NCBI GenBank assembly: GCA_031287685.1
Contig: JAITSQ010000025.1
Coordinates: 1 to 64,000, forward strand
Direction: 5' to 3'
Length of the DNA: 64,000 nt
From: Clostridiales bacterium
GTDB lineage: Bacteria; Bacillota; Clostridia; Lachnospirales; WQUN01
In this document: positions 5,175 through 57,790 of the stretch, one piece after another
How positions within the stretch are numbered: position 1 is the first letter of the stretch
How the letters are laid out: every line of letters begins with the position of its first letter
The notes under the pieces: generated by a model
What the model was told of the DNA's origin: nothing
Seen by the model: the letters and a program-made list of their open reading frames with translations, nothing else
The model's database searches: none
Translations under genes and position numbers: made by a program

Positions 5175-5176
5175 TA

Positions 5177-5357
5177 AGGAAGCGGCTTTTTCGGCGGGTC
5201 AACTTGCTCGGTGTTTTGGATTGTCTAAAAAAGATTTAGACAATCCAAAGCCCCCTTCTTGGTCGGCCCGGTTTTAACCCGGAGACGCGTTTAGTGTTCG
5301 CGCGGCTTTAGGCGCGAACACTACGCCGGAGGGCCGTCGAAAAAACGCTGAGCAAGG
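5177..5357. repeat. Modular palindromic repeat, copy 1
   Basis: This insert in the tRNA cluster starts GCGGCTTTTTCGGC and ends GTCGAAAAAACGCTGAGC, so the two ends pair. Nested inside are a 15-bp perfect hairpin (arms TTTGGATTGTCTAAA, loop AAAGA) and a 10-bp hairpin (GTGTTCGCGC/GCGCGAACAC, 5294-5321). Its first ~117 bases are nearly identical to 57087-57204 inside the pdxK gene. No gene is seen here. Confidence 0.85.
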
Positions 5358-7123: not shown

Positions 7124-7206
7124 GCCGGTGTGGCGGAATGGCAGACGCGGCAGACTCAAAATCTGCTATAGGCGACTATGTGGGGGTTCGAGTCCCTTCA
7201 CCGGCA
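7124..7206 (+). tRNA. tRNA-Leu (CAA)
   Basis: Class II tRNA; acceptor GCCGGTG/CACCGGC; anticodon stem GCAGA/TCTGC with loop CTCAAAA gives CAA. No encoded CCA. Confidence 0.96.
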
Positions 7207-7223
7207 TCCCTTTATCAGAGTGT

Positions 7224-7949
7224 TTATCGCAAGATAATTATTGCCGTAACTATTCCGTTCAATGTATTGAGAATTGGGTGAAGAATACCGAGGCGAAGAC
7301 TTTTCTTATACCAAACGGCGTAAGTATATGGGGTAATCGCTAAAATTCGAGTGAAAAACTCCCAAGGAGTAATAAAATGATACAGCGAGAACAGAGCGGT
7401 ATTACAAAGCGGAGCCATTTTACCCAAAATATTCATGCGCGGAAGCAAAAAGCCTCGAAAATATAATTCCTCGACAAAAGGCGCCAATAGGCCGTTAAGG
7501 GTTATATTAAGGACGGCAATCAATATCAAAACTTCCTTGGAAAGCCCTTCGGGTGAAAATTTATCCAAGCGAAACCATTGCGGCGCCCAATCAAAAATCG
7601 TCCATAAAGGGCGCTCGAAAGGGGCGGCTGACGAGTAAACGAGAGCGGCAAATATCAGCAGCGGTAAAACCCACAAGAACGTTTTGACAGCGGACATTTT
7701 TTCGGTAAAAGGTATTATATCTTTTATCTTCTTATTTTCTTTTCGGGCAGCGAAATAGAGGACGCCGAGTTGCGCGGGGGCAAGGCCGAGAGGAATAGCC
7801 AATAATACGGATAATAAAATAGGCAGCCCTGCTCCGCAAGCAGGGTTCGACAGCAAAATCACAATAACTAAAATCGGAATACCCGGCAACAAATGAAAAC
7901 ACAAAATTTCACCTATTCCCATTTGCTTGACATTTAGTGAGTTATTCAT
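7224..7949 (-). CDS. CPBP family intramembrane metalloprotease
   Basis: The 241-residue polytopic membrane protein has about six to eight hydrophobic segments. The CPBP (Abi/Rce1-type) motifs are present: EELYFR, the FxxxH element FSLYH, and a late HPILN. Family members cleave membrane-bound or lipid-modified substrates or serve in immunity and secretion; the target here is unknown. The start is MNNSLN at 7949 because AAGGAG lies 7 bases upstream; a frame to 7970 would bury that site. It is AT-richer than its neighbours and stands alone, converging on tRNA-Leu, which may point to acquisition. Confidence 0.88.
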   Translation of the reverse strand: MNNSLNVKQMGIGEILCFHLLPGIPILVIVILLSNPACGAGLPILLSVLLAIPLGLAPAQLGVLYFAARKENKKIKDIIPFTEKMSAVKTFLWVLPLLIFAALVYSSAAPFERPLWTIFDWAPQWFRLDKFSPEGLSKEVLILIAVLNITLNGLLAPFVEELYFRGFLLPRMNILGKMAPLCNTALFSLYHFITPWEFFTRILAITPYTYAVWYKKSLRLGILHPILNTLNGIVTAIIILR

Positions 7950-16776: not shown

Positions 16777-16992
16777 ATGCCCGAATTTACTTGCAAACTC
16801 AAAGAATACCGTACCGGCGCGGGCCTTACCCAGGAGCGGCTTGGGGAAATGACGGGCGTGCGCCGGGAGACCATTATCAGGCTTGAGGCGGGGAAGTACA
16901 ACCCCTCGCTCAGGCTGGCCATAGACATTTCAAGGGCGGTCGGCGCGCCGATTGAGGAAATATTTATATTTCAGTATAGCAATTCCGTTTGA
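16777..16992 (+). CDS. XRE-family HTH transcriptional regulator
   Basis: The 71-residue single-domain DNA-binding protein has an HTH core LTQERLGEMTGVRRETIIRL (residues 17-36) typical of small Cro/CI-like regulators. Its last six residues (YSNSV with the preceding Q) and stop codon are read from the end of a MITE-like element, so the original C-terminus was replaced or trimmed by insertion. It probably binds the palindrome at 16371-16386. Confidence 0.9.
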   Translation: MPEFTCKLKEYRTGAGLTQERLGEMTGVRRETIIRLEAGKYNPSLRLAIDISRAVGAPIEEIFIFQYSNSV

Positions 16993-17123
16993 TATTGGCG
17001 TTCTTTCGCGCCGAAAACGCGTTGAAGCCGGTGTTTTTTCGGCACTAATGCCTGCCGAAAAAGCCACTTTCTTGCCCGCGATTTTCGGCTTGAACAACGC
17101 CAATCAAACATGGAATTGCTATA
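16975..17123. mobile_element. MITE-like element 1 (149 bp)
   Basis: The ends are TATAGCAATTCC and its complement GGAATTGCTATA, extended by GTTTGATATTGGCGTT on the left and the related AACGCCAATCAAACAT on the right. The outer TA on each side would fit a TA target duplication. The core contains a palindrome TTTTTTCGGCA/TGCCGAAAAA (17034-17062) of the dispersed repeat family. No coding capacity. Confidence 0.75.
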
Positions 17124-22127: not shown

Positions 22128-22235
22128 AAGAATCATTTTACCATATCCGCGCCAAGTAATCAACAGTTCTGACAAAAAAATGCGCGCTTGGCGCGGAGAA
22201 AGTCAAAACATCGGATTCAACGCGTTTCCGGCGAT

Positions 22236-22450
22236 GAAGAAGGCGGCTTTTTCGCGGGGCAGTAACCGCGAAAAAACGCCGAGCAAGGAAGCGGCTTTTT
22301 TGGCGGGTCAACTTGGCCACCCGGCCAGCAAGCAGAGCTTGCGAGAGGGCAGTAGCGCCGAAAAAACGCTGAGCAAGGAAGCGGCTTTTTTGGCGGGCAG
22401 TAGCGCCGAAAAAACGCTGAGCGCAGCTTATGTCAAACGGAATTGCTATA
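22236..22450. repeat. Array of modular palindromic repeats, MITE-type right end
   Basis: At least three ~45-base units lie in tandem, each with outer ends GCGGCTTTTT and AAAAAACGCYGAGC. Arms seen: CGCGG/CCGCG (about 22252-22275) and GGCG/CGCC (about 22388-22410). A middle unit has a long nested loop with GCAAGC-AGA-GCTTGC. The array ends in TCAAACGGAATTGCTATA (22433-22450), the MITE terminal sequence. The opposite end is too eroded to place. It fills the thiI-ylbJ gap; no gene is seen. Confidence 0.8.
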
Positions 22451-25881: not shown

Positions 25882-26084
25882 TATAGCAATTCCGCTTGAT
25901 ATTGGCGTTGTCCGGTGTTTTTTCGGGCCTGCTTCCGCCCGAAAAAGCCCCCTTCTTGCCCGGTGTTTTTTGGCCTGCTCCCGCCCGAAAAAGCCCCCTT
26001 CTTGCCCGGTGTTTTTTCGCGGTTACTGTCCCGCGAAAAAGCCCCCTTCCTTGAACGACGCCAATCAAACATGGAATTGCTCTA
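25882..26084. mobile_element. MITE-like element 2 (203 bp) with three palindromic units
   Basis: The ends match element 1: TATAGCAATTCC on the left and GGAATTGCTCTA on the right, with ATTGGCGTT and ACGCCAATCAAACAT inside. Between them are three ~48-base units with arms CGGGC/GCCCG, an eroded GGC form, and CGCGG/CCGCG, separated by CCCCCTTCTTGCCCGGTG-like spacers. The right end forms the pheT stop codon. Confidence 0.78.
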
Positions 26085-56542: not shown

Positions 56543-57790
56543 GTGGAAAGAACTATTAAAAATGGGCGCGTTTTAACAATTCAGGATATTTCGTGCTTCG
56601 GGCGATGTTCGCTGACGGTGGCCCTGCCGATTTTGTCGGCGGCGGGTTTTGAAACTACGGTAATCCCTACGGCGCTACTTTCGTCGCACACGGGTATTCC
56701 AGGCTTCACCCTGCGTGATCTGGGCGGCGAAATCCTGCCGATAGCCCGCCATTTTAAGGAAATCGGACTGCGCTTTTCGGCGGTGTACACGGGGTATTTG
56801 GCGAATAATGAACAAATAGGCATTGTCGGCGAAGTTATAGAGCTGCTCGCGGACAAGGACACTTTAATTGTTATCGACCCGGTTATGGGGGACGACGGGC
56901 GGCTCTACAAGGGGCTTCCGCCGGATTTTCCCGCCGAAATGCGGAGGCTTTGCCGCCGCGCGGACGTAATAACGCCAAACTTGACGGAGGCGCGGTTTCT
57001 CACCGGAAGCGACGTTGGCGTCGGCGAGGCGCTGGAAAGGCTTTCGGAGCTTGCGCCGCGCGTCGTTCTGACTGGCGTTGAGGAGAAGGAGGCGGCTTTT
57101 TCGGCGGGACAACTTGCTCGGTGTTTTGGATTGTCTAAAAAAGATTTAGACAATCCAAAGCCCCCTTCTTGGCCGCCCGGTTTTAACCCGGAGACGCGTT
57201 TAGGCTTGGCGCGGGCACGAACATTTGCGGCAGCTTTTTCGCAAAGCGAAAATAGCGAGAGCAAGAAGGTGGCTTTTTGGCGCGGCACCAAGCGCCAAAA
57301 AACGCCGAGCAAATGTGGGGAGGCGCGAACATTGCGCCGGAGGGTTGTTAACCCGGAGGCGCGTTTAGGTTTGGCGCGGGGTCAAGCGCCAAACCTGCGC
57401 CGGAGGGCCAGCAAGCGGAGCTTGCGAGAGGGCATCAGCGCCGAAAAAACGCCGAGCAAGAAGGTGGCTTTGTGGCGAGGCTTCAATCGCCAAAAAACGC
57501 CGAGCAAGGAGCGCCTCCTGTCCGCCTCTTTCGACCGCCTGACGGGGGAGGCTTCGCGGGTGTTTGTCGATAAACTTCCTAAAAACTTTTTCGGCACGGG
57601 AGATGTGTTCGCGAGCGTCCTTACGGCGGCGCTCCTGCGGGGAATGGCCTTAGAGCGGGCTATGCGCGCAGCGTCGGCTTTTACCCAGGCGGCCATAGCG
57701 GCGACGAACCCGGCCGCCGGCCCTGAAATGGGCTTGGATTTTGAGAGGGCGCTTACGAAACTGCCGGAGATACTGACGATTAAGGAGTAA
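56543..57790 (+). CDS. Pyridoxal/pyridoxamine kinase with in-frame repeat insertion
   Basis: The ribokinase-fold enzyme phosphorylates B6 vitamers. N-terminal ISCFGRCSL, DPVMGDDG and TPNLTEARFL, and the catalytic FGTGDVFAS near the C-terminus are intact. Without the insert the protein would be about 275 residues, the family size. The actual ORF is 415. Residues ~182-322 come from the dispersed palindromic repeat family and form an Arg/Lys/Ser-rich segment with repeated KTPSK and VAxWRG words. It replaces a loop just before the C-terminal ATP-binding strands. The GTG start has a nearby GGAG. The catalytic Asp is preserved, so activity may be too. Confidence 0.9.
   Translation: MERTIKNGRVLTIQDISCFGRCSLTVALPILSAAGFETTVIPTALLSSHTGIPGFTLRDLGGEILPIARHFKEIGLRFSAVYTGYLANNEQIGIVGEVIELLADKDTLIVIDPVMGDDGRLYKGLPPDFPAEMRRLCRRADVITPNLTEARFLTGSDVGVGEALERLSELAPRVVLTGVEEKEAAFSAGQLARCFGLSKKDLDNPKPPSWPPGFNPETRLGLARARTFAAAFSQSENSESKKVAFWRGTKRQKTPSKCGEARTLRRRVVNPEARLGLARGQAPNLRRRASKRSLREGISAEKTPSKKVALWRGFNRQKTPSKERLLSASFDRLTGEASRVFVDKLPKNFFGTGDVFASVLTAALLRGMALERAMRAASAFTQAAIAATNPAAGPEMGLDFERALTKLPEILTIKE
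57087..57510 (+). repeat. Composite palindromic repeat inside pdxK
   Basis: About 424 bases remain open in the pdxK frame. Order: a block nearly identical to 5177-5294, a TTTTTCGC-AAA-GCGAAAA hairpin, a unit with arms GGCGC/GCGCC (about 57273-57302), a 10-bp hairpin GGTTTGGCGC/GCGCCAAACC (57368-57395), a module GCAAGC-GGA-GCTTGC shared with 22328-22342, and a unit with arms TGGCGA/TCGCCA (about 57472-57497). Confidence 0.88.

Follow-up and report, generated by a model that had tools for sequence, protein, structure and literature searches.

The window considered here, a 64,000-nucleotide stretch of a Clostridiales genome, raises the question of how an array of palindromic repeats can lie within the gene for a pyridoxal kinase and be read in frame, and whether the extra protein segment is tolerated, useful, or the mark of a dead gene. 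The open reading frame at 56543-57790 has 415 open codons, and without the insert it would encode about 276 aa, in line with a preliminary description that had estimated the kinase parts at about 275 aa and placed the in-frame array at 57087-57510. The array is real, and the measured island differs from that placement by 1 bp. The features of the gene and its insert are as follows.

56543-57790, plus strand: pdxK, pyridoxal/pyridoxamine kinase, 415 aa with the insert and about 276 aa without it, with a GTG start
57086-57511, plus strand: composite palindromic repeat island in pdxK, read in frame as residues 182-323, net gain of 139 aa compared with relatives
57116-57170, minus strand: 55-bp unit in antisense orientation, palindrome GGATTGTCTAAA...TTTAGACAATCC
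57183-57215 and 57348-57380, plus strand: pair of 33-bp direct repeats framing the middle of the composite
57263-57310, plus strand: 48-bp unit, peptide KKVAFWRGTKRQKTPS
57411-57433, plus strand: GCAAGCGGAGCTTGCGAGAGGGC module, present at 46 sites in the genome; four genomes of the family have a related module
57458-57505, plus strand: 48-bp unit, peptide KKVALWRGFNRQKTPS

The insert had been described as a palindromic repeat array; the repeats are present, but the composite is more structured than this implies, combining 48- and 55-bp units with other modules. Its internal build includes a 66-nt segment occurring twice, 33-nt direct repeats, and a palindrome with 20-nt arms, and its RNA folding energy lies 6 standard deviations below that of shuffled versions. 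The unit at 57458-57505 has arms unlike those of the copy at 57263 that nevertheless still pair (GGCGA/TCGCC). The insert has no match in Rfam, PHROGs, or PDB and has 84 matches across the genome, far above chance.

We compared the kinase with 28 kinases encoded at other loci, mostly from the same family and order. All 28 align to PdxK residues 1 to 180 and then to approximately residues 325 to 412, with nothing between, and because the distance from the LTG motif to the GTGD motif is 31 to 35 residues in these relatives (median, 33) and 172 in PdxK, the site is empty elsewhere. A homologous, nonrepetitive segment in relatives would have refuted the preliminary description; by alignment, the segment is absent from 28 of 28, and the nearest solved structures (3mbh and 3h74) likewise lack it. 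The net insertion of 139 aa corresponds to 417 bp, which is divisible by three. A match to the pyridoxamine kinase model NF005491 (E value of 4e-66) consists of N- and C-terminal stretches flanking a gap of ∼140 residues, and we infer that the insert forms a loop running from the strand that ends in VVLTG to the GTGD motif. Structure prediction without an alignment was of little help here, with a mean pLDDT of only 39.

A 139-aa insertion is large for an enzyme of about 276 aa, no relative carries it, and expression data are lacking, all of which would be compatible with pdxK being a young pseudogene, inactivated by the repeat and open by accident. We consider this rather improbable. The alignment bears out the earlier claim that the GTGD motif is undamaged, the other kinase motifs are intact as well, and the gene remains tightly packed in a cluster (NUDIX, ECF S component, radical SAM, pdxK, dnaE), with neighbors only 2 to 5 bp away on each side. 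In addition, PdxS was not convincingly found in this genome (a doubtful match of 28.5 bits against a cutoff of 27), so salvage may be needed.

The preliminary description had equated the pdxK repeats with those of two intergenic regions near 5177 and 22236, and the sequence identities support this. Four further repeat islands lie in the window, two of them absent from that description.

5176-5336, plus strand: intergenic copy in the tRNA cluster, matching the first part of the pdxK insert at 94 to 95% identity over ∼130 bp
16975-17123, strand not given: further repeat island with a genome-repeat depth of 33, not described earlier
22229-22450, plus strand: intergenic array of 48-bp units, 80 to 90% identical to the pdxK insert, in pieces
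25908-26084, minus strand: further island of the same repeat family, not described earlier

The tRNA-cluster copy contains a stop in the frame equivalent to that of pdxK, due to a 1-bp length difference. The same holds more widely: compared with the start of the pdxK insert, copies from contigs C5, C11 (at 49.5 kb), C21, and C27, like that of the tRNA cluster, show 1-bp indels and an in-frame stop, whereas pdxK combines length variants that keep the frame open. Copies that span only the later part of the insert (C7, and C11 at 99.8 kb) are stop-free. Between pdxK and the intergenic copies, changes at third codon positions are mildly in excess, although these comparisons are not independent. 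The contrast between an open frame in pdxK and stops in the intergenic versions would fit selection for openness and speaks against a frame left open by accident in a pseudogene. Long composite arrays that are ∼92 to 93% identical to the pdxK insert over 276 bp also occur on two different contigs (L062:5813-6534 and L063:3609-4225), which suggests that whole composites, and not units alone, may be copied.

The repeats belong to a large family in this genome, which is a 1.88-Mb draft in 37 contigs, estimated at 97% completeness. Within ∼0.65 Mb selected around repeats, a survey that provides no full census of genic copies, we found roughly 200 islands of 30 to 720 bp each. Their common unit has the form AAG[A/G]AGGSGGCTTT, followed by a variable palindrome and AAAACRCCGAGC, with conserved ends (AAG[A/G]AGG and CCGAGC) and lengths of mainly 48, 54, or 55 bp, and units occur singly, in tandem, or nested. 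Three motifs from the pdxK insert have 188, 104, and 46 sites in the genome, compared to 14, 0, and 0 for reversed-pattern controls, and the unit pattern itself has 152 matches, compared to none for its reversed control. Although the arms vary, they do so together. Columns 19 and 28 of the 48-bp units are paired (G-C, C-G, or A-T) in 70 of 75 distinct copies (27 in shuffles), and columns 15 and 38 of the 54-bp units in 48 of 55 (16.5 in shuffles), while the copy in comEA carries a double compensating change affecting both arms (GGATAGTC/GACTATCC). The unit ends pair imperfectly, with the lower-stem columns 4-42, 5-41, and 7-39 paired in most copies.

Outside this genome the family largely disappears. 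The unit pattern gives a single match in each of 4 of 391 other genomes of the order, which is at chance level and without a matching palindrome, and a contig scan with the most common palindrome returned just two unrelated, chance-like matches (the genome itself was possibly excluded from that scan). The best reading of these sequence comparisons is that of a non-autonomous hairpin repeat putatively private to the lineage. The sole module with relatives in four family members is GCAAGC..GCTTGCGAGAGGGC, which is apparently intergenic there. The related module in these four same-family genomes (L104, L105, L106, and L107) has the form GGCC[G/A]CCCGGCCAGCAA-stem-TTGCGAGAGGGC, and on this basis some of the repeat repertoire may predate the genus.

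Other genes carrying KTPSK-type peptides, as anticipated in the preliminary description, were found, including the gene for the replicative polymerase PolC. A codon-score scan, which needs coding-like flanks on both sides and therefore misses already decayed genes, classed 192 islands as 168 intergenic, 15 in frame, and 9 candidates for disruption. These nine are located at gene ends, with the upstream stop codon mostly at the island edge, and none of the 192 classed islands clearly breaks a gene. In PolC (contig C15, L117:2429-2547), two tandem 48-bp units add 32 aa shortly before the C-terminal HHH region, in the context SKFTVTE-AAFSAGISAEKTPSTEAAFLGGSKREKTPST-GG. Eighteen relatives are shorter at this point by exactly 32 residues, or nearly so, and Geobacillus PolC (3f2b) also lacks the insert. 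That the essential PolC tolerates a similar insert is a further argument against reading pdxK as a pseudogene, and a PolC-type polymerase, together with the relatives, is consistent with the earlier attribution of this DNA to a Firmicute.

In an NRPS-like multidomain protein, of which 2,932 aa lie in the stretch examined, one linker region holds three tandem units and a single unit follows further on, before a terminal reductase-like domain (L197:9710-9852 and 7196-7246). The remaining hosts include FolC, a U32 peptidase, an Amidase_2 protein, a VanY-type peptidase, a DUF6765 protein, ComEA, ZapA, SLH-type cell wall enzymes, and others. The evidence for insertion is less clean in FolC, where the host loop varies among relatives, and in PepP, which contains a unit in a region that is similarly long in relatives. 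We note that two cell wall hydrolases sharing an SLH-like tail (SDWAKEAWEWA) carry repeats at matching positions (L144:2501-2596 and L063:2483-2546), perhaps inherited via duplication, and that ZapA (L072:1381-1530) has a different in-frame repeat, NMAARPVSEAYER, ahead of its coiled coil that is apparently another module. At L075:3106-3366, an upstream gene (...CGIDNC) appears to terminate inside a repeat, which supplies its last residues and the stop codon. Four apparent N-terminal repeat fusions (L066, L079, L078, and L152) were not counted, as the likely gene starts lie downstream of the repeat.

The number and consistency of these inserts bear on whether the pdxK composite could be an artefact, with repeats stitched into the gene by metagenome misassembly. 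The genome is a draft in 37 contigs with many near-identical repeats, and, without read support, this explanation is not excluded. We nevertheless regard it as unlikely, to the point of giving it very little weight, given that about a dozen other ORFs contain inserts whose frame is consistent; moreover, the two pdxK flanks are halves of one gene and share its frame, the closest copies differ from the insert by about 8%, and the PolC insert is exactly two units long.

Each unit encodes 16 or 18 residues, and the frame in which it is read depends on the host. Four frames of the 48-bp unit are mostly open, while the 54-bp unit is open only in sense frame 0 and antisense frame 1. In a stricter unbiased scan, all seven islands (FolC, PepP, PolC, U32, amidase, and two in NRPS) use sense frame 0, an agreement with a chance probability of about (1/4)^6 given four open frames. 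This frame, used by soluble hosts, encodes the peptide KEAAFSAGSSAEKTPS and is hydrophilic (mean GRAVY of −0.70 to −0.91). The hydrophobic antisense frame (mean GRAVY of +0.28 to +0.59) is read by two membrane proteins, a member of the YhhN family and an unnamed protein in L148, with host GRAVY values of 0.74 and 0.40. The division of frame use by protein class (11 versus 2 hosts; P of about 0.013) points to selection on the product, over an insertion mechanism with a fixed frame, insofar as sequence alone can indicate this. Across the repeat pool, the openness of these frames is accounted for by the consensus alone, with no sign of extra selection.

These frames also bear on whether the pdxK insert is translated at all. 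Ribosome bypassing has been described for mobile hairpin elements of some yeast mitochondria, and the very stable hairpin structure into which the insert folds could suggest that it is skipped in this way or removed by splicing. Skipping would place no demand on the frame or on the absence of stops. Every genic island found nevertheless keeps the frame, no out-of-frame unit was seen to split a gene, and a single frame serves all soluble hosts; we find little room for this explanation. Most likely, the repeat contributes additional amino acids to these host proteins as the cell makes them, although there are no protein, transcript, or enzyme data.

With good confidence, then, we interpret the pdxK array as a composite copy of a non-autonomous palindromic repeat that is private to the lineage and whose genic survivors preserve the frame and are tolerated, with translation, activity, and mobility all inferred. 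We hypothesize that units insert regardless of genes, that frame-shifting copies and those landing in structured parts would be purged, and that surviving copies would be translated, adding hydrophilic loops or linkers tolerated by the host protein. How the units are copied is the weakest step. Given the fixed ends and covarying arms, copying may depend on the hairpin, formed either by single-stranded DNA or as a cruciform, and may use replication or a trans-acting enzyme, although the covariation could alternatively come from hairpin-templated correction between arms. No match to a REP transposase (Y1/RAYT, PF01797) was found in this 97% complete genome, and 70 isolated units showed no excess of target duplication over shuffled flanks; REP and classical MITE routes are therefore unsupported. 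ACG at both ends of the PolC insert and GAG flanking one NRPS site are no more than suggestive.

The preliminary description had inferred repeats that are either tolerated or domesticated, and of these, tolerance is supported, whereas a positive function is not. Domestication, for example in regulating mRNA stability or tuning enzymes, could be argued from arms that covary even in genic copies. This covariation is, however, as expected for the whole pool and not specific to genes, the host functions are unrelated, units are strongly depleted from genes, and relatives do without them, making usefulness quite improbable as an explanation. A bolder extension, which we offer only as an outside possibility, is that a coding-compatible mobile repeat has evolved: lengths in multiples of 3 together with a palindrome would yield an in-frame linker in either orientation, with a hydrophilic strand for soluble and a hydrophobic strand for membrane proteins, the hairpin would be kept by dedicated copying, and the genome would be steadily adding peptide loops to essential enzymes.

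As a kind, repeats tolerated in coding genes are already known from the Rickettsia palindromic elements (RPE), the parallel drawn in the preliminary description and one that our analysis supports. Like the RPE and the Wolbachia WPE, the repeats described here are palindromic, form hairpins, and occur both between genes and in frame in unrelated conserved genes (PMC3767692, PMC2229807, PMC10969869), and the insertions are absent from homologues outside the lineage (28 PdxK and 18 PolC) in genes that are otherwise intact. RPE lie in frame in many conserved genes, including that for DNA polymerase III alpha of R. japonica (PMC3767692), and PolC here likewise carries a repeat; for a Rickettsia guanylate kinase with an RPE, translation and activity have been shown (reviewed in PMC2229807). 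RPE are single elements of 100 to 150 bp in Rickettsiales, whereas this family, private to one PolC-bearing lineage, has 48-, 54-, and 55-bp units, often tandem or nested, and two coding frames split by protein class. What is new here is thus the unit length, the tandem and nested build, the host lineage, and the use of two frames. A search of a limited body of literature found no report of such in-frame palindromic repeats in Firmicutes, which is not proof of absence.

Other known systems are less similar. REP, BIME, and REPIN sequences are also high-copy short hairpins in mostly intergenic arrays, but REPs have GTAG/CGTC tags and RAYT transposases (PMC3733652, PMC2817692), neither of which was found here, and in-frame genic copies are no hallmark of theirs. 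Bacterial MITEs with ORFs (ERIC, Coxiella QMITE, and BOX) are small non-autonomous repeats able to fuse in frame with genes (PMC10969869, PMC5896051), while the present units are modular and tandem, with imperfect inverted ends and no target duplication above shuffles. PARCELs are palindromic DNA encoding a repeated peptide, but one of 25 amphipathic residues in dedicated, often membrane-targeted ORFs (PMC2996958), in contrast to units of 16 to 18 aa in conserved enzymes. The coding palindromes of Nematomorpha mitochondria are inverted repeats within protein-coding genes (PMC6649704) but are confined to the genes of small mitochondrial genomes, with no dispersed family common to bacterial intergenic DNA.

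In-frame palindromic repeats in conserved genes have so far been found chiefly in Rickettsia and Wolbachia, where the decay of obligate endosymbiont genomes could be blamed. A dense, separate family in an unrelated lineage, in a 1.9-Mb genome and reaching the replicative polymerase, indicates that the phenomenon arises repeatedly. Annotation and structure prediction can be led astray by such inserts, and the choice of frame by protein class makes selection versus mechanism testable. The inserts are also natural insertion experiments, showing where PdxK, PolC, and NRPS have loops that accommodate 16 to 139 added residues.
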